Positions 8,759 through 27,873 of a stretch of DNA of 45,044 nucleotides are shown in pieces. The translations under genes and the position numbers were made by a program. Under the pieces are notes generated by a model that saw only the letters and a list, made by a program, of their open reading frames with translations, ran no database searches and was not told the DNA's origin. The stretch's first letter is position 1. Every line of letters begins with the position of its first letter. The stretch comes from Methanobacteriota archaeon. Its GTDB lineage: Archaea; Thermoplasmatota; Poseidoniia; Poseidoniales; Poseidoniaceae. The DNA lies in contig PBET01000019.1 of assembly GCA_002719815.1 (NCBI GenBank), positions 24,939-69,982 of the forward strand, written 5' to 3'.

Positions 8759-10267
8759 ATGGATGACAAGTACGACCTGAGAAGTCTCTTCCTTGGAGAG
8801 GACAGTTTCGCCCACAAGACCATTACTTCACTGCTTGAAGGTACGCCACTGGAGGAAAGTTCCTCAGCCATCGCTTTCGGTGTGGGAACATTTGCCGTTG
8901 TCAACATCGTGTTCCTGTTGCTGTTCTTCTCTCAATTCGCCATCCTTTGGATTGAGCGTAAGGCTGTTGCTCGTATGAACGATCGCCGTGGAGCAACCAC
9001 CGCGCTTCGTTCGCTTTGGGTCGGAGAAAACGGTGTGACTGCTGGTGCTTGGTGGAACATGCTTCCATTCGGACTCGGTCGTCCAGTCGGTGCACTCAAC
9101 AAGTGGCTGAACAATCGCTTTGGCAATCAATCAGAATACGAAACAGTTGACCGTGTCGGAAACCGTTCGTGGATGGGTCTAAGCATCTTCCCTGGATTCT
9201 TCCAAAATGTTGCTGATGGTATGAAGTTCCTCGTCAAGGAACACATGGTCCCTCGTCGTGCAGATAAACTCATTTTCGAAGTTTCACCGTTCCTTATCGT
9301 TTCAACAACACTTCTCATTCTCGGTATGATCCCACTTTCAAGTGGCATCTACGCAACCAATCCTGACCTTTCCATTCTCTACATCATTGCCATTTTCGGA
9401 ATTGCTCCAATCGGTGTTTTCTTCGCAGGTTGGTCTTCCAACAACAAGTATACGCTCATCGGCGGTATTCGTTCAGCAGCCCAATTGACTGCTTATGAGA
9501 TTCCACTCCTGCTGACACTTCTCGCAGTGGCGATGCTCACTGGAACGTTCAACATCATCGACAGCGTTCATTTCCAACACACAGCAGGTGCCTGGAACAT
9601 CTTCCTGATGCCGTTGGGAGGCGCTCTGTTCCTCATCACCATGATCGCTGAAGTTGAACGTGTTCCGTTCGATATGCCTGAAGCAGAAGCGGAATTGGTC
9701 GAAGGATGGTGGACCGAATACGGCGGTATGCGATTCGGAATGTTGTTCATGGCTGAATACATTCGAACCTACGCTGCTTGTTTCCTCTTTACGCACTTCT
9801 TCCTTGGTGGATGGCATCTACCATTCCAAGGACTCATCGGTAGCATCCCATACCTCGGCCCTGCTTACCTTTTGATTCCTGGTGCGCTCGTCGTCCTCAT
9901 CAAGGCATGGCTGGTGTTCCTTATCGTCTTCGTATGGGCTCGATTCTCTCTTGCCCGTATTCGAACCGATCAGATCCTTGAGTTTGGATGGCGTATGCTC
10001 CTTCCGCTTGCAGTCTTGCAAGTTGTTCTCGCAGCAGTCTACCGTCTCTATCTGTTCGATTTGGACGGAATGTCTGATACCGTTTACGGAGGAACTGCAT
10101 GGGATGCATTCGGTGTTCCATTCCTCGTACCAGCATTGACCACAATCTTGTGGCTTGCAATCTTCTTCCTATTGCTCAATGATACGGGCAAGAATGAACG
10201 CGTTGCACGTATGTACCACGTGCAAACGGTGCAACCTGCTGGTACACACACGCCTGGACAGGACTGA
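8759..10267 (+). CDS. nuoH: Complex I subunit H with enlarged quinone-site loop
   Basis: This 502-residue membrane subunit joins the peripheral arm to the membrane arm. The family hallmark is EVERVPFDMPEAEAELVEGW followed by TEYGGMRFGMLFMAEY. WIERKAVARMNDRRG near residues 64-78 matches the usual ERKxxAxxQxRxGP loop. The family is normally about 320-350 residues. Part of the excess is a roughly 40-residue N-terminal extension. Another part is an insertion of about 55-60 residues between that loop (about 80) and FFQNVADGMKFLVKEH (about 147), a Trp/Gly-rich stretch including LPFGLGRPVGALN. The insertion faces the quinone chamber in known structures. Start ATG 8759 follows TGAGGTGA. Confidence 0.95.
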   Translation: MDDKYDLRSLFLGEDSFAHKTITSLLEGTPLEESSSAIAFGVGTFAVVNIVFLLLFFSQFAILWIERKAVARMNDRRGATTALRSLWVGENGVTAGAWWNMLPFGLGRPVGALNKWLNNRFGNQSEYETVDRVGNRSWMGLSIFPGFFQNVADGMKFLVKEHMVPRRADKLIFEVSPFLIVSTTLLILGMIPLSSGIYATNPDLSILYIIAIFGIAPIGVFFAGWSSNNKYTLIGGIRSAAQLTAYEIPLLLTLLAVAMLTGTFNIIDSVHFQHTAGAWNIFLMPLGGALFLITMIAEVERVPFDMPEAEAELVEGWWTEYGGMRFGMLFMAEYIRTYAACFLFTHFFLGGWHLPFQGLIGSIPYLGPAYLLIPGALVVLIKAWLVFLIVFVWARFSLARIRTDQILEFGWRMLLPLAVLQVVLAAVYRLYLFDLDGMSDTVYGGTAWDAFGVPFLVPALTTILWLAIFFLLLNDTGKNERVARMYHVQTVQPAGTHTPGQD

Positions 10268-10278
10268 GGTGAAGAAAC

Positions 10279-11631
10279 ATGCCAACACACCCTCAAGCAA
10301 AACCAAACTTCCGAAATTTGTTCTGGTATCCGTTCAAGATCACCTTGATTACGGCACTCCGAACCTTCCCGTTCTTGGGCCGTATGTTCCCAAAGAAGCT
10401 GGGTATGGGATACCACAACACGTCCCATCCAGAGTTCCTTGATGATGCAAGCGAGCATCGCGCTAAAGGCCGTGCAAAGTACAACGACATTTCCAATCAG
10501 GAATTCGCTCCAGACCGTGTCACATCAGATCTCTTCCCAAGTCTATGGAAGCCACAAACCGTCCAATACCCATACGAACGTCTTGAAGACATGGAACCAT
10601 GGCTCTTCGTTCCTGGAAATTACAACGGACGAATCGGCGTCATTTGGGAGACCTGTACTGCTTGTAAAATGTGCGTCAACATCTGTCCAAACGATTGTTT
10701 GCACATGACCACTGAACTTCGTGTCGACGTCCTTGACAATGCTGAAGGCGAGTACGAAGGCTATGGTGCTGAACTTGAAGTCGGTGGCTATGCTGCAAAG
10801 TTCCGTGAGGAAGTAACCGAAGAACTCGAATCTTTTGATTTGATTACCGCTCACAGTGCTCCTCCATCCGAGTGGCGATTTGCGCAAGTGTTGGATCTCT
10901 CTGGTAGTACTGCAACCGTTCGATGGAACGATTCAGGCCAGGAAGAAGTTCTTGCACAATCCGAACTTCGAACTGCGGATGACCAAATTGTCTCAGGCCG
11001 AATCGATATTGGCCGTTGTATGTTCTGTGGTCTCTGTATGGAAGCCTGTGGCTTTACTTCGTTCTTCATGACCAATGAATACGATGGAATGTCTGGTTTT
11101 ACTCGACAAGACCTTTGGTTCGATGCAAACCGAACGCGCGTTCTTCCTTCCGTCCACCAAGAAGCGGTCGATGGTGAACTTGCTAAGCGAGCGACCAAGG
11201 AACGAGACAAGCGCGCAAAGAAAGCAGCGAAGGCTGCTAAACCTGAAGTGGAAGTCGTAGAACCGACCCCAGTTGTCGAAGAAAAGGTCGAAGTCAAGCC
11301 TGAGCCAGAAGAAGAGAAGCCTTTGAGCAAAGAAGAGAAGAAGGAAGCTGAACTTCTGCGTGTAAAGGAACGATCAAAGAACATCGATTTCGACATTCTT
11401 GGTACTGCGAGTGCTGATGAGAAAGACGACCTGAAAACCATCAAAGGTGTCGGGCCATTCATCGAAGAGAAACTCAACGCTCTCGGTATCTTCACCTTCT
11501 CACAAATCAGTAAAATGACCAGCGAGTTAGAAGACCAAGTCAACGAAGCCATCGAGTTCTTCCCAGGTCGCGTTAAGCGAGACGAATGGGCCAAGCAGGC
11601 CAAGGAACTACTCGATAAGGGGGATGCCTGA
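10279..11631 (+). CDS. nuoI: Complex I subunit I with central insert and C-terminal HhH-like domain
   Basis: This 450-residue version of the 2x[4Fe-4S] subunit is far longer than the usual 130-200. The N-terminus carries a membrane-apposed helix (YPFKITLITALRTFPFLG). Cluster one is Cys126, 129, 132 and 136 (CTACKMCVNICP). Cluster two is Cys247, 250, 253 and 257 (CMFCGLCMEACG). The 110-residue gap between them includes a beta-rich stretch at about 198-235 (FAQVLDLSGSTATVRWND) that resembles an SH3/Tudor barrel. After about residue 300 comes a Lys/Ala/Glu-rich linker, then a domain at about 383-445 (DLKTIKGVGPFIEEKLNALG) like the helix-hairpin-helix domain attached to some ribosomal L21 and NuoE proteins. 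It passes electrons towards NuoB. Confidence 0.93.
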   Translation: MPTHPQAKPNFRNLFWYPFKITLITALRTFPFLGRMFPKKLGMGYHNTSHPEFLDDASEHRAKGRAKYNDISNQEFAPDRVTSDLFPSLWKPQTVQYPYERLEDMEPWLFVPGNYNGRIGVIWETCTACKMCVNICPNDCLHMTTELRVDVLDNAEGEYEGYGAELEVGGYAAKFREEVTEELESFDLITAHSAPPSEWRFAQVLDLSGSTATVRWNDSGQEEVLAQSELRTADDQIVSGRIDIGRCMFCGLCMEACGFTSFFMTNEYDGMSGFTRQDLWFDANRTRVLPSVHQEAVDGELAKRATKERDKRAKKAAKAAKPEVEVVEPTPVVEEKVEVKPEPEEEKPLSKEEKKEAELLRVKERSKNIDFDILGTASADEKDDLKTIKGVGPFIEEKLNALGIFTFSQISKMTSELEDQVNEAIEFFPGRVKRDEWAKQAKELLDKGDA

Positions 11632-11632
11632 A

Positions 11633-11908
11633 ATGGACGTTGCCTCCACCACTGAAACCATCATATTCTTCGTTTTTGCAACGATTACAATTCTTGGAGC
11701 ATTAGGACTCATCTATGCACAGCGTGTTGCCCATTCGATGCTCTCACTGATTTTCTGTTTCATGGCAGTTTCTGGAATTTTCATCCTTATGGGTGCTGAA
11801 TTCCTTGCAGCCATTCAGATTCTGGTGTATCTTGCCAGCGTAGGGTTGGTGGTACTGTTCGGTATTATGCTGACTCGACGACAAATTCAGGAGGAGGATT
11901 TTGAATGA
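11633..11908 (+). CDS. nuoJ: Complex I subunit J, N-terminal half
   Basis: This 91-residue membrane protein corresponds to the first three helices of NuoJ. The signature GAEFLAAIQILVYLASVGLVVLFG contains the pi-bulge helix region conserved in ND6/NuoJ. ATG 11633 is preferred over 11624, because the latter overlaps nuoI and has GGGGG directly abutting it, whereas 11633 has that site 9 nt away. The next gene supplies the remaining helices, so NuoJ is split in two, as reported for some archaeal complexes. The stop overlaps the next start as ATGA. Confidence 0.9.
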   Translation: MDVASTTETIIFFVFATITILGALGLIYAQRVAHSMLSLIFCFMAVSGIFILMGAEFLAAIQILVYLASVGLVVLFGIMLTRRQIQEEDFE

Positions 11909-12174
11909 GATTGATGTCTACTTTAACTCGACTTGGCTTGATCTTCCTTGCAGGTGCAATGATTACCGTACTCGGAACTGCAGAACTTTGGGATCAGGAG
12001 CCTGACAAAGAAGTCACAACCCTCGACCTTGCCAACACAATGCTCGACGATTGGGCTCTGCCATTGCTCATTCTAGGCGTTCTCATGGCTATGGCGATGA
12101 TGGGTGCTGCCTATCTCGTCCGGGATGAACGTCGTGAAAATCTTGAGTGGGAACAGCGAGGTGAAGACGCATGA
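11905..12174 (+). CDS. Complex I subunit J, C-terminal half (split NuoJ)
   Basis: This 89-residue protein has two hydrophobic helices (about 8-24 and 49-69). It lies exactly where the C-terminal part of NuoJ belongs. ALPLLILGVLMAMAMMGAAYLVRDER fits the last NuoJ helix, but sequence conservation is low in this region. The call rests largely on position between nuoJ and nuoK and on 4-bp ATGA overlaps with both. The tail is strongly charged. It most likely assembles with the preceding 91-residue subunit in the proton channel region. Confidence 0.8.
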   Translation: MRLMSTLTRLGLIFLAGAMITVLGTAELWDQEPDKEVTTLDLANTMLDDWALPLLILGVLMAMAMMGAAYLVRDERRENLEWEQRGEDA

Positions 12175-12473
12175 TCGATCCAGCATGGGTAAGCGTTCTT
12201 TCCGCGATTCTGTTCATTATCGGTGTATGGGGCGCATTCACTCGAAAGAATGCTATCATCGTCTTGATGTGTCTTGAATTGATTCTCAATGCTGCAAATC
12301 TTCAATTCGTTGCAGCAGCCATCCAGCACGGCGATGCTACAGGATGGGTTTATGCAATCTTTGCCATTGCCATTGCAGCCTCAGAGGTTGCGATTGGTTT
12401 GGCCATTTTCCTTGCCATGTATGGCCAACACGAAACGATTTCACTCGATGATGTGAATCTCTTGAAACACTGA
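12171..12473 (+). CDS. nuoK: Complex I subunit K
   Basis: This 100-residue protein with three membrane helices is the NuoK/ND4L/MrpC-like subunit. The two membrane glutamates needed for proton transfer are visible in LMCLELILNAANLQF and ASEVAIGLAIFLAMYG. Length is typical. The start overlaps the previous gene as ATGA. Its stop TGA forms the first bases of the TGAGGTGA site preceding nuoL. Confidence 0.95.
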   Translation: MIDPAWVSVLSAILFIIGVWGAFTRKNAIIVLMCLELILNAANLQFVAAAIQHGDATGWVYAIFAIAIAASEVAIGLAIFLAMYGQHETISLDDVNLLKH

Positions 12474-12482
12474 GGTGATAGA

Positions 12483-14714
12483 ATGGGCGGTACATCAGAA
12501 ACAATCAGTTCAACTTTCATTGAGTATGCGATTTTCATCGTACTCTTACCAATGCTTGCTTTCCCAATCATCCTCTTTTTGGGACACATCTTCAATGGGA
12601 ATCAAACATGGGTCAAGTCTGCAAAGGAAGGAGGCCTCATCGCTCTTCCAATCATGGTTGCAAGCTTTGTTCTCTCCATGCTCCTCATATCCGAATTTAT
12701 TGGAAAGGGAACAGGAGCACATCACATTGGTGATTGGCTCTCATTCGGTTGGATGAGTGCAGATGGAATGACCATCAACGAGAAGGTCTTCGGCGTTGGT
12801 ATTTACATCGACCACGTTACGGTAATGCTTCTCTTCGTCGCTTCCTTCCTCTGTATGCTCATCAACATCTTTAGCATTGGCTACATGAACACCGATCCAG
12901 TCAACGATAATCGTAACCACAGATTCTACGCTGAATTCGTTCTGTTCTGTTCAGGTATGCTCGGAATGGTTCTCGCTGATTCATTCCTTTGGCTGTTCAT
13001 CTTCTGGGAATTGATGGGCCTTTGTTCCTACCTTCTCATCGGCTTCTATTACGAGAAGCCAAGTGCAGCCTATGCAGCAAAGAAGGCGTTCTTGACCACA
13101 CGTGTTGGTGACGTTTTCCTCGTAATCGGATTGGTCATGCTCTGGAACCTCTTTGATTCACTCGATTATGCAGTCGTCTTCAATGAGGATTTGATTGCAC
13201 AAGTCGATCCTGGACAACTCCAACTTGCACTGGGAATGATGTTTATCGGTGCTGTTGGTAAGTCTGCCCAATTCCCACTTCACGTTTGGCTGCCTGATGC
13301 AATGGAAGGGCCAACGCCTGTATCCGCCCTTATCCACGCTGCAACCATGGTCAACGCAGGTCTGTACCTCGTTGCACGAATGTTCCCATTCTTTGGAGCA
13401 CCGTCAATGGCTGGCGAGCTTGTTGACCTCGCATTCATTATTGCCGCAATAGGAGGTATTACCGCCGTTATGGCCGCAGCGATTGCATTTGTTCAAGATG
13501 ATTTGAAGAAGGTCCTAGCGTATTCGACCATGAGCCAACTCGCCTACATCTTTACTGGCCTCGGTGCAGCGTTATGGCTTGCCAACACACCAGGAATGGA
13601 AAAGTATGCAATCGTCGCCTTTGGGGCTGCTCTTTTCCACCTCTTTAACCATGCAATGGCAAAAGGAATGCTGTTCATGGCCAGTGGTTCAGTCATTCAC
13701 GAAATGCATCATGCACATCACGATTTACATCACCATGACGACCATGGTGACGATCATCACGATGACCATCATGACGATCATTTCGATGCACAATCGATGG
13801 AGAACATGGGAGGACTTGCCTCGAAGATGCCAATTACTGCTACGGCGATGTTGGTCGGTTCGGCCTCGATTATGGGTCTACCATTGATTGGTGGATTCTG
13901 GTCCAAAGAAGGCATCATCGCAAATGCTTGGAGAGTTGCTCGCGAAGAGCCACTGTTCTTGTTCCCAGCTTTCTGTGTTCTTTTGGGTGCAGCAATGACC
14001 GGTTTCTATATGTCGAGAATGTGGCTCAAGACCTTTGCTGGTAAACCAAAGACAGAAGTTGCAGCCAACGTTCATGAGAACACCCCTTGGATTCCGATTC
14101 CATTGGTGACGCTCACCTTCGTGTCTCTATCAAGCGTCATTCTCGCAGGAATGATGTTCACACATTGGTCAAGCGACAGTAGCTATGCATTCTTCAGTGA
14201 AAAAGGATTGATTGATGGTCTGATATACGAATTTGAACACATCTTCCTCAATTCTGATGCCTTCTTCTTCGTACTGACCTATTTTGTAATCTTCATCGGA
14301 GCCATTGTTGGACCTGGCCTTGCAATGGCTCTTTACGGTGGTTCGCTCAAGGATGGCGAGAAATCCAAGCCATGGATGCAACCGATTATCAACCTCTCTT
14401 CTCGAGTCAATGCAAAGCGTGGTTTTGACAACAGTGCATGGGCTAATTCAGGTCTTTCCGATGCACTCAAGGAGCGCTTGTACTTTGACAAGTGGTACGA
14501 TGCAGCCATGCTCAAACTTGTTGCTGGCTTTGCCAACATCAGTGCTGCATTTGACAAGAACGTTGTCGATGGAACCATCAAGACGATTGAATCAACCTCG
14601 CAGAAACTCTCAACACAGGTTCGACGCTTGACAACAGGATCAGCTCGTGACTACATCATGATGGCGGCCTTAGGCGTCCTCGTTATCTATCTCATGTTGG
14701 AGGTGATGATTTGA
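12483..14714 (+). CDS. nuoL: Complex I antiporter-like subunit L with His/Asp-rich loop
   Basis: This 743-residue, many-helix subunit is homologous to Mrp antiporters. Core motifs are FIFWELMGLCSYLLIGFYYE, with the membrane Glu, and HVWLPDAMEGPTPVSALIHA, with the broken-helix Lys/His region. A long C-terminal lateral-helix region follows, ending in a membrane anchor. In the loop after SGSVIHEMHHA, at about residues 405-440, there is an insertion of alternating His and Asp (HHDDHGDDHHDDHHDDH) not normal for the family, which could bind divalent metal. Start ATG 12483 follows TGAGGTGA. It is complete. The stop overlaps nuoM by 4 nt. Confidence 0.96.
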   Translation: MGGTSETISSTFIEYAIFIVLLPMLAFPIILFLGHIFNGNQTWVKSAKEGGLIALPIMVASFVLSMLLISEFIGKGTGAHHIGDWLSFGWMSADGMTINEKVFGVGIYIDHVTVMLLFVASFLCMLINIFSIGYMNTDPVNDNRNHRFYAEFVLFCSGMLGMVLADSFLWLFIFWELMGLCSYLLIGFYYEKPSAAYAAKKAFLTTRVGDVFLVIGLVMLWNLFDSLDYAVVFNEDLIAQVDPGQLQLALGMMFIGAVGKSAQFPLHVWLPDAMEGPTPVSALIHAATMVNAGLYLVARMFPFFGAPSMAGELVDLAFIIAAIGGITAVMAAAIAFVQDDLKKVLAYSTMSQLAYIFTGLGAALWLANTPGMEKYAIVAFGAALFHLFNHAMAKGMLFMASGSVIHEMHHAHHDLHHHDDHGDDHHDDHHDDHFDAQSMENMGGLASKMPITATAMLVGSASIMGLPLIGGFWSKEGIIANAWRVAREEPLFLFPAFCVLLGAAMTGFYMSRMWLKTFAGKPKTEVAANVHENTPWIPIPLVTLTFVSLSSVILAGMMFTHWSSDSSYAFFSEKGLIDGLIYEFEHIFLNSDAFFFVLTYFVIFIGAIVGPGLAMALYGGSLKDGEKSKPWMQPIINLSSRVNAKRGFDNSAWANSGLSDALKERLYFDKWYDAAMLKLVAGFANISAAFDKNVVDGTIKTIESTSQKLSTQVRRLTTGSARDYIMMAALGVLVIYLMLEVMI

Positions 14715-16273
14715 ACATCGACTACCTTTCATTGATGGTCATTCTCCCAATTCTTGCAAGTATCTTCTTGTTGATTCTGACATCTCGACTCAATCCAGCA
14801 GCTCGAGCTAAGTTCGACGCACCAGTTCGTATGGCTTCGTTGATTATTTCTTTGGCAATGTTCGTGCTTGCAACGCTGATGTTCTTAGGACAGATTGGAG
14901 ATGTTGGATGGAACGATATTGCTTTCAATAATTTCGAATTCCAAGAATCCTATGTTTGGATTGAACAACTTGGCATCACATGGACGGTCGGTGTTGACGG
15001 TCTCTCCTTCCCAATGGTTTGGCTGACAACGCTGTTGATGCCGATCACGATTATTGCAACATGGAACGAGAAAGCAGGCGCCACTTACTTCCCACTCATG
15101 CTCATGCTCGGTGGTGCACTGATCGGTGTCTTCGTCGCTCTTGACATGTTCATGTTTTACGTCTTCTGGGAATTGACACTCATTCCAATGTTCTTCATGA
15201 TTCTCAAGTGGGGTGGAAAAGACCGCAAGTACGCTGCTCAGAAGTTCTTCATCTACACGTTCACAGCTTCCGTCATCATGCTTCTCGGTCTGTTGACGAT
15301 GTACTTCTTGATGGACACACAGACCTTCAGTATGCAAGAGATGGTTGTTCAAGCGAGTGGTGCAAACGGAAATGGCGTCTGGCTTGGTCTTGAAGTTCAG
15401 AAAGTTCTCTTCATCATGCTGATGCTTGGTTTCCTCGTGAAACTTCCAGCAGCACCGTTCCACACTTGGCTTCCTGATGCACACGTTCAGGCACCAACAG
15501 GTGGTTCGATGATGTTGGCTGGTGTGATGTTGAAGATGGGTGCTTACGGTATGTTCCGTCTTCCAATCTCATTGTTCCCACATGCGCTGGAAGAGTTCCG
15601 TTTCATCATCATGATCATCGGTCTCATCTCTCTTGTTTGGGGCGCCATCGTCTGTCTCGGACAAACCAATCTCAAGAAGATGGTCGCTTATTCATCGGTC
15701 TCTCACATGGGTGTCATCCTATTGGGTATTGCCAGCATGCAACCGCTCGGTTGGGCTGCAGCCCTCTTCATGATGTTCGCTCACGGAATCATCAGCCCAA
15801 TGCTCTTCGCAGTCTGTGGCGCATTCAAGCATCATTACCACAGCATGGAGATCGGAGCTATGCGAGGTATGGCAAAGCATTCACCATGGCTTGCAACGAG
15901 CATGATGTTTGGTTGGATGGCTTCACTCGGTCTTCCACTGCTTGCAGGATTCGTTGCTGAATTGATGCTTATGGTCGCCTACTGGTATGCGTACGGTTGG
16001 TGGATTCTCCTACCTGGGCTTGTTCTTGCCATCACTGCCGCCTACTATCTTTGGTCGATGCAACGAACCATCTTCGAAGGTGGAGAAGCAACACAACCTC
16101 CAGAAAGCCTTCACGGTGAACCGGTTCCTGACATTGACAACTCAGAAAAGATTGCAATGCTCTTGCTTGCAGCCTTTACCATCCTCTTCGGTATCATGCC
16201 ATGGATTTTCCTCGACATGATGGATATGTGGACTCGTAGCGCCATGGCGTTCCTTGGTGTTGGAGGTGCCTGA
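14711..16273 (+). CDS. nuoM: Complex I antiporter-like subunit M
   Basis: This 520-residue membrane subunit has motifs typical of NuoM/ND4: MFYVFWELTLIPMFFMI with the conserved Glu, AAPFHTWLPDAHVQAPTGGS, and LKKMVAYSSVSHMGVILLG. It begins with TTG at 14711, inside the TTGA overlap with the nuoL stop. GGAGGTGATG immediately upstream supports this start. It forms one of the three proton-channel subunits with NuoL and NuoN. No unusual insertion was seen. Confidence 0.96.
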   Translation: MNIDYLSLMVILPILASIFLLILTSRLNPAARAKFDAPVRMASLIISLAMFVLATLMFLGQIGDVGWNDIAFNNFEFQESYVWIEQLGITWTVGVDGLSFPMVWLTTLLMPITIIATWNEKAGATYFPLMLMLGGALIGVFVALDMFMFYVFWELTLIPMFFMILKWGGKDRKYAAQKFFIYTFTASVIMLLGLLTMYFLMDTQTFSMQEMVVQASGANGNGVWLGLEVQKVLFIMLMLGFLVKLPAAPFHTWLPDAHVQAPTGGSMMLAGVMLKMGAYGMFRLPISLFPHALEEFRFIIMIIGLISLVWGAIVCLGQTNLKKMVAYSSVSHMGVILLGIASMQPLGWAAALFMMFAHGIISPMLFAVCGAFKHHYHSMEIGAMRGMAKHSPWLATSMMFGWMASLGLPLLAGFVAELMLMVAYWYAYGWWILLPGLVLAITAAYYLWSMQRTIFEGGEATQPPESLHGEPVPDIDNSEKIAMLLLAAFTILFGIMPWIFLDMMDMWTRSAMAFLGVGGA

Positions 16274-16274
16274 T

Positions 16275-17960
16275 ATGTCAAATCAAAATGAACTCAACAT
16301 GGACATGATCGAAACGCTCGGTCCAGAATTCACAGTATTTGTCGGACTGTTGCTCATCATGATCGTTCCGAATCTAGGAAACGGGACGTTCCGAGTACCG
16401 GGTACATCAATTCGATTGCCATGGTTCCTTGGTGGAACACGCTACAAGGTGGTTGCATCACCTCGACTTCCTGGTTTACTCGCTGTCTTAACGATGGCTG
16501 TGGCACTTATCCAAGTCATCTGGTACCTTTGCGACTCATCAGCTGCCGATGGTAAAGTCATTTCAAGTGAAAATGGTATTGAAATTTTCAAAGTCAATAT
16601 GTTCTCTCGAATCTTCGAAGCCATTTTCTTTGCAGCATTGCTCCTTGCAGCAATCGCTTCGCTTGATCGTCTACCAACGGGCTCTCAAAAGAGCGATGAT
16701 ATCGATGTACTGTTCAACAATCGTCGTCAAGCAGATTTCTATATTCTGATGTTGACTTCAGCACTCGGAATGAGCGTTGTTGCACTGGCTCAAGACATGT
16801 TCGTCTTGTTTGTTGGGTTGGAACTTGCCTCATTCTCGACCTATGTTCTCGTCGCATTCCACAAGGAAACACGAGCAGGTTCTGAAGGTGGTGCCAAGTA
16901 CTTCATCGTCGGTTCGGTCGCTTCCGCAGTCGGTCTCTACGGTCTGAGTATGCTCTACCTCTGGGCAGGCTCACTTCAATTCGATGTGCTCGCAGCAAAG
17001 TGGGCTGCTGATGGAGCAACATCCCTCAGCATGATGGCGCTCGGATTTGTTCTGGTTGGATTCGCATTCAAGATCAGTGCTGTTCCATTCCACTTTGCTG
17101 CACCTGATGCGTATTCTGGCGCAAACAGTCCTGTTGCTGGTGTTCTCGCAACTGCAAGCAAGGCAATGGGTATGCTCGGTTTGATGCGTGTTCTTCTCAT
17201 CATTACCATTCCAGATTCGACCGCTGATGGATCTGCTGTTTGGATTGGACTCCTTGGTGTGCTCGCAGCTGTGACGATGACATGGGGTAACATCGCTGCC
17301 CTTGGCAGCGAGAATCCAAAGCGTATGCTCGCCTACTCATCGGTTGCTCATGCAGGATACATGCTTGCAGCATTAACGGCAATTGGTGCATGGAATTGGG
17401 GTCTTGTTGACAATGCAGGCGATGCGATGGATGTCGTGGTTGCAGCACTGCTCTTCCACATGTTTGTTCTCGTCTTCTTCAAACTTGGAGCCTTCCTTGT
17501 TCTCGGTGTCCTCGAGATGGAGGGTGGAGCTTCCCGCCTCTCATCACTTGCTGGACTGGGTAAGCGAGAACCACTGCTTGCTGTTGCCATGTTCTTGTTC
17601 ATGATTTCACTTGCAGGTGTGCCACCAATGGCCGGATTCCTGTCCAAGCTCTTGGTCATCATGGGAATCGTTGAGGTTGCAACAGGAACAGGTTCGCTTT
17701 CATCGATCGCTGATGCGCACTGGGTCTGGTGGCTTGCTCTCTTGATGGTTATCAACAGCGCAATCTCGATGTTCTACTATCTCCGTGTTGGTGTCGTCAT
17801 GTACTTCCACGAGCCTGAAGAAGGCCGACAAGGACCACTTGCATCAGGTGCATCAATTCGAATTGCAATCGCACTGTGTGCAATTGGAACGGTCGCATTT
17901 GGACTGGTCGGTGGCGAATTAATCGACATGTGCAGAGATGCTGCAGAATCACTTCGCTGA
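16275..17960 (+). CDS. nuoN: Complex I antiporter-like subunit N
   Basis: This 561-residue membrane subunit is the last gene of the operon. MFVLFVGLELASFSTYVLVAFHKE carries the conserved Glu. AVPFHFAAPDAYSGANSPVAG and KRMLAYSSVAHAGYMLAAL match NuoN/ND2. ATG 16275 is chosen because GGAGGTG at 16262-16268 lies 6 nt upstream; the longer frame from 16254 overlaps nuoM. The family is usually about 480 residues, and the excess is mainly in the N-terminal 100 residues (FRVPGTSIRLPWFLGGTRYK). No complex I gene follows, so NuoE, F and G are absent here. Confidence 0.95.
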   Translation: MSNQNELNMDMIETLGPEFTVFVGLLLIMIVPNLGNGTFRVPGTSIRLPWFLGGTRYKVVASPRLPGLLAVLTMAVALIQVIWYLCDSSAADGKVISSENGIEIFKVNMFSRIFEAIFFAALLLAAIASLDRLPTGSQKSDDIDVLFNNRRQADFYILMLTSALGMSVVALAQDMFVLFVGLELASFSTYVLVAFHKETRAGSEGGAKYFIVGSVASAVGLYGLSMLYLWAGSLQFDVLAAKWAADGATSLSMMALGFVLVGFAFKISAVPFHFAAPDAYSGANSPVAGVLATASKAMGMLGLMRVLLIITIPDSTADGSAVWIGLLGVLAAVTMTWGNIAALGSENPKRMLAYSSVAHAGYMLAALTAIGAWNWGLVDNAGDAMDVVVAALLFHMFVLVFFKLGAFLVLGVLEMEGGASRLSSLAGLGKREPLLAVAMFLFMISLAGVPPMAGFLSKLLVIMGIVEVATGTGSLSSIADAHWVWWLALLMVINSAISMFYYLRVGVVMYFHEPEEGRQGPLASGASIRIAIALCAIGTVAFGLVGGELIDMCRDAAESLR

Positions 17961-25268: not shown

Positions 25269-25420
25269 TTGATGCCTGTCAGCACTCATAGGGTTCGTCA
25301 TCGCTTGCGCTCGGAGTTGCTCTTGCGTCATTCAGGCAAGTTGACACAATCTGAAGGTCCGTTTCAACGCTTCCCTGTGTTGGGGTGATTTTCATATCGT
25401 TGAGATGATTGGAGGGGTAC

Positions 25421-25978
25421 ATGCAGCAGAGAGTTCTCACGGTCTTTATGGCCCTCTCGATGTTGCTGGTCTCAACATCGGGTTGCATTGGTCTTCTCCA
25501 AAGTAGGGAATACATGGAGCACCTACGTGGCGATATTCAAGTACAGACGCAAACTGAGACAACGAGCATTGAACATTTCTTCGATCAAGCAGAAGTTGGC
25601 AGAGAGTGGAATGAGAAGTTTACAGTCGATTCAGAAGTAACAGCTATCGGTGTCTACTTCAAAACGACCATGGCTGGTGAAACGGTCAAAGAAATCTTTG
25701 AGCAACTTGGAATATTGGATCCTCGTCAGGTTGAAGTCAGGATTACAGATTCACTCGGAACGCTTCGATACAACGCTACACACGATTCAACGAAGACTGC
25801 TCCTTATGTGAACATCGTTCCTGGAGCGGATGGAAAATTTGTTTCTGGCGAATGGAACATCAACATCGTTGGTACAGGTGGTGGCCTGTTTGGAGAGCAG
25901 GATGACTTTTTGCTGAACGTCTATGTTGATCGTTCCTGCACGGTTTATCCTCAAGATGATGTCTGTGTTGTCGATTAG
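25421..25978 (+). CDS. Predicted lipoprotein of unknown function
   Basis: This 185-residue protein starts at ATG 25421 behind GGAGGGG; an in-frame TTG at 25409 overlaps that site. The N-terminus has a hydrophobic signal (VFMALSMLLVSTSGC) ending in a lipobox-like SGC, so Cys about residue 21 could be lipid-modified and the protein anchored on the cell surface. The mature part is mixed alpha/beta with no recognised family. Two late cysteines (RSCTVYPQDDVC) could form a disulfide. The stop overlaps that of the convergent downstream gene by 4 bp. The 152 bp before the start hold no convincing gene. Confidence 0.7.
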   Translation: MQQRVLTVFMALSMLLVSTSGCIGLLQSREYMEHLRGDIQVQTQTETTSIEHFFDQAEVGREWNEKFTVDSEVTAIGVYFKTTMAGETVKEIFEQLGILDPRQVEVRITDSLGTLRYNATHDSTKTAPYVNIVPGADGKFVSGEWNINIVGTGGGLFGEQDDFLLNVYVDRSCTVYPQDDVCVVD

Positions 25979-27144
25979 ACAAGCGATTCACTGCAGGCAT
26001 AACGACGACTGCAATGTCGACATTTCCCTTTTCGCTCATGGTTACGCTTTGCACCACCTTCGACCATTAATCGTTGAACTTCGATAATACTCTCTTGGAG
26101 ATGTTGTTGCGCATGTTGGTCCCAAAAGACCTGATGCACATCGTCCTCACCATAGCGAAGAACGCCATATGGTGGAGACTTGTTGGTACTTGTTTCAACG
26201 AGGGAAATGTAGGCTAACAGTTGCAAACGATGCGATGCATGAGGCTTCTTTGGAACCTTTCCTGTCTTTTGTTCCACAGGGATGAATTCCCCATCGATGA
26301 TGACGATTTGATCTGGGCGTCCACGTAGGCCGGAAACTGGATCGATGAGAAGGTCGCTACTTTTGTCATCGTCTGAATACATCAATTGAGCTCCTTCCTC
26401 AAGGCCCGCTTTCTTCCGATTCTCCACCATTTCATTCTCAGCCTTGAGCGACCGTTGAAGTTGCCATGTTGCCAAGAAGGTCCAAATGAAAGCAATGACG
26501 ATGAGAATAAATGCAGCCTGGTCTCGATCTTCTGCAGCAACCAATGCAATGGCATGAGCGCCGATGACAATCGTAGCAAGAAGCAAACCTGCTTCTGTCC
26601 TTCCTGCTGAAAACCATCCTCCCAAGAATCCGATTGGACTCCATGTTGGTTCTAATCCAGTCGATTCAAATTGTTCCTTTAGGTCGCGAATTTCTTTGAT
26701 ACTTCGCTCAAATTTGAACCAATTCCGCCATGGTAATGCAATGGATAGAATTGCTACAATTAAACAAGAAACTGACCACATCGAGAGAATTTTAGCGAAT
26801 TCGAGAGGAGGATTCATGACATCATCGATGTAGAGAAAGGCGATTGAATCGATGGCAAAGGCGATGATAATCCCAAACCACCACGACCAGATGAGAAGCG
26901 ATCTACGCATTCGGATCATGGCTTCTTGATATTCATTCATATCATTGTGAATCTCTTTGTGTTTCTCAACACCTTCTTCAATCGCCTCGCCAACGCCTGA
27001 TGTACCTTCTTTGGCAAGTTGCCAAGACAATGGGCAATACATGAATCGCTCCAAGTCGCTCGCACTAACGGGCAATGCGTTTCCATCTTCATCACAATAA
27101 TAGTCCTCAGGGCCGATTTTTGCACCTGAAAAAACGCCCCCCAT
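25975..27144 (-). CDS. Membrane-embedded Cas4/RecB-like PD-(D/E)XK nuclease with Fe-S ligands
   Basis: This 389-residue protein has a split Cas4-like nuclease. The N-terminal part has SDLERFMYCPLSWQL with Cys37, then a GVEKHKEIH helix. Four predicted membrane helices interrupt the domain, in two pairs at about 85-150 and 185-235. The nuclease core resumes with GRPDQIV (Asp278), IPVEQKTGK (Glu291, Lys293) and HRLQLLAYI (Gln308). The C-terminus gives CRHCSRRYAC: Cys375, 378 and 384 in the CxxC-x5-C spacing of the Cas4/AddB iron-sulfur cluster. All expected catalytic residues are present, so DNA exonuclease activity is likely. No cas genes or CRISPR array are nearby. The membrane insertion is unusual. 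The start ATG 27144 lacks a clear ribosome site. Confidence 0.82.
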   Translation of the reverse strand: MGGVFSGAKIGPEDYYCDEDGNALPVSASDLERFMYCPLSWQLAKEGTSGVGEAIEEGVEKHKEIHNDMNEYQEAMIRMRRSLLIWSWWFGIIIAFAIDSIAFLYIDDVMNPPLEFAKILSMWSVSCLIVAILSIALPWRNWFKFERSIKEIRDLKEQFESTGLEPTWSPIGFLGGWFSAGRTEAGLLLATIVIGAHAIALVAAEDRDQAAFILIVIAFIWTFLATWQLQRSLKAENEMVENRKKAGLEEGAQLMYSDDDKSSDLLIDPVSGLRGRPDQIVIIDGEFIPVEQKTGKVPKKPHASHRLQLLAYISLVETSTNKSPPYGVLRYGEDDVHQVFWDQHAQQHLQESIIEVQRLMVEGGAKRNHERKGKCRHCSRRYACSESLV

Positions 27145-27264: not shown

Positions 27265-27873
27265 ATGACTGAAGAAACGGGACTCTTGATTCCACTTGAA
27301 CTCTATGAAGAATCTGGTGTGAACATCGGAACAAAGCAGAAGAGCGCTGATATGAGTCGCTTTATCGACACAGTCAATTCCGATGGTCTTTACCTTCTCA
27401 ATTTGAATCAAACAGATACTCGAATCCGCATCATTGCATCCTTTTTGAATCAATACGATCCATCGAAGATTATGGTCGTCTCAGCTCGGCAGTACGGACA
27501 ACGTCCTGCTCGTATGTTTGCTGAAGCGATTGGAGCAAATTCAGCTGTTGGTCGATTCATCCCAGGAAGCCTCACCAATCCAGCTCTCCGCTCCTACAAG
27601 GAACCGGATGTCTTGTTTGTTACCGACCCAGCATCCGATCAACAATCGCTTCGAGAAGCCGTTAACACAGGTCTACCAATCGTTGGCCTCGTCGATGCAA
27701 ACAACAAGTTGCGAAACGTTGACGTTGCACTACCTGCAAACAACAAGAGTCGACACTCTCTTGCTCTCATTTACTGGCTTCTTTCCCGTGAAGTTCTCAA
27801 GTTGCGAGGAGAAACAACCGACGACGCTTGGGCAGAAGCAAACGATTTGGAAGATTGGAAGTCAACCTTCTGA
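27265..27873 (+). CDS. rpsB: Ribosomal protein uS2 (small subunit)
   Basis: This 202-residue protein matches archaeal uS2 (S2/SA). Signatures include SGVNIGTKQKSADMSRFI near residues 18-35, GLYLLNLNQTDTRIRI, FAEAIGANSAVGRFIPGSLTNP and DPASDQQSLREAVNTGLPIVGL. It forms part of the 30S body-head junction. Length is typical. The short acidic/Trp tail (DDAWAEANDLEDWKSTF) resembles archaeal forms. Here it stands apart from the usual archaeal operon with uS9, uL13 and RNA polymerase subunits. The 120 bp upstream separate it from the divergent nuclease gene. It overlaps the convergent dihydrouridine synthase by 12 bp. Confidence 0.95.
   Translation: MTEETGLLIPLELYEESGVNIGTKQKSADMSRFIDTVNSDGLYLLNLNQTDTRIRIIASFLNQYDPSKIMVVSARQYGQRPARMFAEAIGANSAVGRFIPGSLTNPALRSYKEPDVLFVTDPASDQQSLREAVNTGLPIVGLVDANNKLRNVDVALPANNKSRHSLALIYWLLSREVLKLRGETTDDAWAEANDLEDWKSTF

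Follow-up and report, generated by a model that had tools for sequence, protein, structure and literature searches.

What does a Cas4-type nuclease do in an archaeon when its gene lies away from any CRISPR locus and membrane helices are set into its sequence? The question is raised by a gene at 25975-27144 on the minus strand of the window, i.e. the stretch of 45,044 nucleotides analysed here, which comes from a Poseidoniaceae genome of 1.57 Mb that is 72% complete. The anatomy of this membrane nuclease is well supported by the analysis; its biological role we infer.

The reading frame (389 aa) is confirmed among the open reading frames of the window. Its C-terminal part matches two Pfam families, PDDEXK_1 (8e-12) and Cas_Cas4 (4.3e-9), in each case with a score that passes the curated cut-off. 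The protein also matches the PADLOC Cas4 models (best 2.5e-17), the Cas4 structure 8d3l in a PDB profile search (2.2e-6) and, via its Cas4 domain, the Cas4-Cas1 fusion model NF049935. The comparison with Cas4 profiles that the first-pass annotation had suggested thus gives a match to the Pfam family, and a score of 54.1 bits against TIGR00372 (cas4), below the cut-off of 65 for the CRISPR-associated equivalog. One relative (L149) exceeds this cut-off with 67.2 bits, so at least one member of the family passes it.

The same annotation had listed a full set of Cas4 hallmarks, and each of the residues named (Cys37, Asp278, Glu291, Lys293, Gln308, Cys375, Cys378 and Cys384) is found at its proposed position in the window translation. 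To these we add His62 as a plausible motif-I histidine. Across 65 aligned proteins that share about 30% identity with the window nuclease, all of these residues are invariant except Glu291, which is nearly so; in other words, the catalytic residues and the cysteines are conserved in the relatives. The protein has the signature of a Cas4/RecB-type Fe-S PD-(D/E)XK nuclease, i.e. D...ExK with the motif-I His and QxxxY, together with four cysteines of which one is N-terminal and three are C-terminal (CxxCx5C). The segment RNHxRxGKCxxCSRR is a hallmark of the family. We infer Fe-S binding and nuclease activity for the membrane nuclease, as well as its polarity and its natural substrate. The features are collected in Table 1. 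In a member from another family of the same class (L080 in genome G074, family f3) Thr replaces the catalytic Asp and ExK has become DxK; this protein is possibly inactive.

Table 1. Position of the nuclease gene, its parts and its immediate neighbours in the window.
Feature	Coordinates	Strand	Basis or remark
Membrane-inserted Cas4-type nuclease gene	25975..27144	-	389 aa; open frame, Pfam PDDEXK_1 and Cas_Cas4
N-terminal Cas4 helix, residues 26-45	27010..27069	-	motif (V/I)SASDLERxxYCPLSW; aligns with Pyrobaculum Cas4 4r5q there
Putative Fe-S ligand Cys37	27034-27036	-	invariant in 65 aligned proteins
His62, motif I	26959..26961	-	invariant; helix 53-109 unbroken into TM1 (AlphaFold2)
TM helix 1, residues 88-106	26827..26883	-	hydropathy; AlphaFold2 helix
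TM helix 2, residues 119-137	26734..26790	-	hydropathy; AlphaFold2 helix
TM helix 3, residues 185-203	26536..26592	-	hydropathy; AlphaFold2 helix 184-203
TM helix 4, residues 211-229	26458..26514	-	hydropathy; AlphaFold2 helix 208-245
PD-(D/E)XK core, residues 260-389 (Asp278, Glu291-x-Lys293, Gln308)	25978..26367	-	pLDDT 87-97; conservation; Foldseek Dna2, Cas4, MGME1
C-terminal putative Fe-S cysteines Cys375, Cys378, Cys384	25993..26022	-	invariant; after conserved RNHxRxGKC
Ribosomal protein uS2, divergent neighbour	27265..27873	+	TIGR01012; conserved neighbour in Poseidoniales, outside the system
Short lipoprotein-like ORF, convergent	25409..25978	+	4-base overlap with nuclease stop; conserved neighbour in Poseidoniales only

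The window nuclease has four hydropathy peaks above 1.9, at the helices TM1 to TM4 of Table 1. In the same scan the nearby ORFs of soluble type (uS2, Dus, HTH proteins and others) have no peak at a threshold of 1.6, and the multi-pass membrane proteins elsewhere in the window have many. The four helices proposed earlier are therefore real features of the hydropathy profile, and only their place in the fold had to be refined: they had been described as two pairs that split Cys37 from the catalytic core, and they are in fact inserted after the motif-I helix, which bears His62, and before the beta sheet that bears Asp278. The flanks of the helices follow the positive-inside pattern. In 77 four-helix proteins the 15 residues ahead of TM1 contain 3.2 K+R on average and the segment after TM4 contains 3.1; loop 2-3 has 4.1, and loops 1-2 and 3-4 have 0.6 each. 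The helices look transmembrane rather than soluble, and the charge pattern places the N and C termini, and with them both halves of the nuclease, probably in the cytoplasm.

The number of helices varies between lineages. Most, like the window protein, have four; the f3 proteins (278-281 aa) have two, and L088, L098 and the members from f11 have about eight. Hairpin 1 of the four-helix form is homologous to hairpin 2 according to hhalign (probability 99%, 53 columns, 32% identity), where the controls were three non-hairpin segments, all negative, and did not include unrelated hairpins. Judged by this comparison, the membrane part appears to be a repeated two-helix hairpin.

The AlphaFold2 model of the window protein (pLDDT 77, pTM 0.71) is most reliable in the nuclease parts (about 20-70 and 260-389, mostly pLDDT 83-97) and moderately confident in the TM region (block means 36-79). 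In the model the motif-I helix runs into TM1 as one helix from 53 to 109, and TM4 extends to 245; the model of a four-helix relative behaves alike. The top Foldseek matches are Dna2, Cas4 and MGME1, with EXO5 also among the nearest structures, so the predicted fold is that of a Cas4/RecB-type nuclease. To the question of whether this fold closes around the helices, the prediction answers with a closed, cytoplasmic nuclease on helical stalks. The hairpins, two in the window protein, would occupy the loop that leads from the motif-I helix to the catalytic beta sheet, an arrangement that would keep both nuclease halves on the cytoplasmic side and let them come together as a single fold.

In genus g4 one protein (L072, genome G026) has an insert of ~95 residues (about 108-205) in the outer loop joining TM1 to TM2; the insert resembles a secreted domain, and L043 (G082) probably carries one of the same type. 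The L072 insert has no Pfam match and no second copy in the fetched loci, and hence it was not used as a topology marker.

How widespread is this architecture? Of about 170 genomes in f1, the window's own family, only 6 lack the gene. Within the same class, 18 f3 genomes and some of the f2 genera also carry it; in f1 and f3 it is near-universal. A profile survey of Thermoplasmatota gave matches in 264 of 392 sampled genomes (147 of 221 of good quality; 110 of 147 genera), the first figure being slightly high since a few matches are ordinary Cas4 or Cas4-Cas1 proteins. A scan with one genome per species returned 402 relatives, and the 80 retained from these are all from Thermoplasmatota or labelled only 'Euryarchaeota archaeon' or 'archaeon'. 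The insertion point is common to relatives across the phylum. The earlier statement that no similar arrangement is known therefore agrees with our literature search but not with the genomes, where the arrangement is common across the whole phylum.

The nuclease tree is broadly consistent with taxonomy, and the nuclease gene shows the vertical inheritance of a core gene, unlike a gene of defence islands. Several f2 genera, mostly with small genomes, have lost it, and it is therefore dispensable. We rejected a viral or mobile origin: no relatives were found in the viral contigs and phages searched, plasmids gave only weak Bacillus Dna2/Cas4 matches (~30% identity), and among viral structures Foldseek matched nothing but phage nucleases of the general PD-(D/E)XK type. 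A second copy in one genome (G171, contig C6, 85804-86948) has internal stops and is apparently decayed; the intact copy is on another contig.

The chromosomal surroundings are fixed within each clade and are not islands. In Poseidoniales the neighbours are uS2, Dus, the lipoprotein-like ORF and a secreted CARDB protein. In other clades the gene directly upstream may encode a secreted LTD-PLD protein (14 loci), an IF-2B family protein that is probably MtnA (13 loci) or a TPD/CDIN1-type PD-(D/E)XK protein (PF14811; 12 loci). The neighbour tables show no stable partner gene across the phylum and no defence island, and the idea of a conserved partner was dropped, as the neighbours differ between clades. 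The secreted protein has two LTD and two PLD domains and a C-terminal membrane helix (e.g. L094, L115, L118, L121, L122, L131, L134 and L149), and in the 14 loci it is separated from the nuclease by a few bases or overlaps it. The TPD-domain gene (CDIN1/C15orf41 family; L089, L140, L158, L164, L167-L170 and others) possibly forms an operon with the nuclease.

Taken with the membrane anatomy, these data lead us to a preferred reading to which we assign a probability of roughly 45%: a solo-Cas4 Fe-S PD-(D/E)XK nuclease that is tethered to the membrane and faces the cytoplasm. Where DNA ends, as single strands or flaps, appear on the inner side of the membrane, it would bind them and trim or degrade them, and its substrate would chiefly be DNA entering the cell. 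We favour incoming DNA because a membrane-tethered end-trimming nuclease has an obvious use there; neither ComEC nor defence neighbours lend support to this step. None of 40 relatives has a match to the ComEC channel family (PF03772), which argues against bacterial-type competence, and classical competence was rejected on this ground. With one old and large branch of the solo-Cas4 family built into the membrane, the search for a role can be focused on DNA located there, and the role can be tested in cultivated relatives such as Aciduliprofundum, which has the single-chain form.

Almost equally likely is a housekeeping role in repair. The protein may be a nuclease of replication or repair that trims flaps and ends in the manner of Dna2, EXO5 or MGME1, tethered because in these archaea the chromosome or the replisome would be attached to the membrane. 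The core-gene behaviour, the taxonomy-consistent tree, the clade-fixed surroundings and the presence of Dna2, MGME1 and EXO5 among the nearest structures all fit this explanation. Yet whole f2 genera have lost the gene, and the clades have no replication or repair operon in common; we regard this explanation as possible and on the unlikely side.

We consider it rather improbable that the nuclease serves nucleic-acid scavenging, where secreted enzymes would cut extracellular DNA and the imported pieces would be digested at the inner membrane face. The 14 loci directly downstream of the lamin-tail/phospholipase-D-type protein, whose superfamily includes nucleases, suggest such a scheme, but this neighbour is missing at most loci, the window included, PLD-type proteins are often not nucleases, and no importer was found (no PF03772 in the 40 relatives). 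Very improbable is a DNA-sensing effector of abortive defence, whose hairpin bundle would open or disrupt the membrane once the nuclease part has bound DNA: the varying number of helices (2, 4 or 8) would suit it, but a plain anchor would tolerate a repeat bundle equally well, and the active-site residues are strictly kept in a gene with a core distribution and no defence neighbours.

The earlier claim that the gene lies away from CRISPR holds for far more than the window. No cas1 or cas2 adjoins the window nuclease, judging by its neighbour genes and the cas1 search of its relatives; cas1 is absent from 60 out of 60 relatives and from every sampled f1-f3 genome, so a CRISPR link was rejected for the window's class, and the nuclease is therefore a solo form, i.e. 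a Cas4 family gene outside CRISPR loci that is vertically inherited. That it acts in trans as the Cas4 of CRISPR adaptation is suggested by the Cas4 profile matches and the member above the TIGR00372 cut-off, but this is the least probable explanation and close to negligible, given a nuclease near-universal in families where no cas1 was found and cas1 in only 83 of the 392 Thermoplasmatota genomes, as compared with 264 for the nuclease family. Automatic 'Cas4' labels in these archaeal genomes do not imply CRISPR.

Characterised solo-Cas4 proteins consist of a contiguous soluble Cas4 domain, which is not formally part of their published definition; the window nuclease, with four inserted TM helices, lacks such a domain. 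Dna2 and EXO5 also bear an Fe-S cluster, and MGME1 lacks the cysteines. These three share the RecB-type fold with the window nuclease but are soluble, and Dna2 has an additional helicase domain. CRISPR-associated Cas4 (TIGR00372; 8d3l, 4r5q, 4ic1) has the same fold, motif order and cysteines but is soluble and encoded beside cas1/cas2, whereas the window protein is membrane-inserted and scores below the family cut-off. The type I-U/I-G Cas4-Cas1 fusions match in the Cas4 domain; the window protein has no Cas1 part and the fusions have no membrane helices. The closest known group is the archaeal solo-Cas4 surveyed by Hudaiberdiev et al. 2017 (PMC5704561), which lie outside CRISPR loci, are mainly vertically inherited and have no assigned role. 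They share with the window nuclease the Cas4 catalytic motifs, the four Fe-S cysteines, the non-CRISPR location and the mainly vertical inheritance; what sets the family described here apart is that its fold contains membrane hairpins, which may be repeated, and that some of its genes are split. The words 'transmembrane' and 'Thermoplasmat-' occur nowhere in the main text of that survey (PMC5704561). A non-exhaustive literature search found no description of a membrane-embedded or split Cas4, and we regard the membrane nuclease as a variant of the known solo-Cas4 whose membrane-embedded and split forms are apparently undescribed. Solo-Cas4 is common in archaea and has no known role.

The split forms are found in three families, f6, f16 and f27 (together L190-L196, L213-L240 and L249-L251), where the nuclease gene consists of two adjacent ORFs and the break is exactly at the outer membrane loop. 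In f16 and f27, chain N (about 73-93 aa) has the Cys motif, the motif-I His and TM1, and chain C (about 175-210 aa) has TM2, D..ExK, Q and CxxCx5-6C. With the break at the outer loop each chain keeps one helix, and the putative Fe-S ligands are on two chains. The split is seen in all of the ~35 f16 and f27 genomes examined and in three f6 genomes, including single-contig ones such as G413 (f27; 1,938,699 bases), and an assembly error was rejected as its cause. L214 and L233 were left unpaired by the automatic pairing, but their C chains are present. In the tree, single-chain and split members are separated by one branch (98/92), which fits a gene that was split, or fused, just once.

The start of chain C differs between the families. 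In f27 it is mostly an ATG or GTG that overlaps the chain N stop or lies just past it. Most f16 loci have, at the end of chain N, a strong Shine-Dalgarno-like stretch (GAGGTGAT); of seven genomes searched, two (one each from f16 and f27) showed the 16S end GGATCACCTCC. Downstream of this stretch an ATA overlaps the chain N stop in 11 out of 18 f16 loci, and in these there is usually no ATG, GTG or TTG close enough to retain TM2; ATGA is used at none of the f16 loci. Chain C of f16 may thus be initiated at an AUA codon. An ordinary -1 frameshift is unlikely in f16, as its loci share no slippery site. We regard it as a serious though tentative possibility that these are phylum-wide membrane nucleases whose Cas4 fold is assembled across hairpins, and that in at least three lineages two helix-held chains share one [4Fe-4S] cluster, with the second chain in one lineage beginning at a non-standard AUA codon downstream of a strong ribosome-binding site. 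If true, this would be one of the few natural cases in which two membrane polypeptides share a nuclease and its Fe-S centre, and the split forms suggest that the halves of a Cas4 fold can be separate genes.

Examples of f16 loci in which the putative start of chain C is the ATA of ATAG or ATAA are L213, L216 and L218. Elsewhere in the window, the plus strand carries a run of multi-pass membrane ORFs (8759-17960) that resemble subunits of respiratory complex I.
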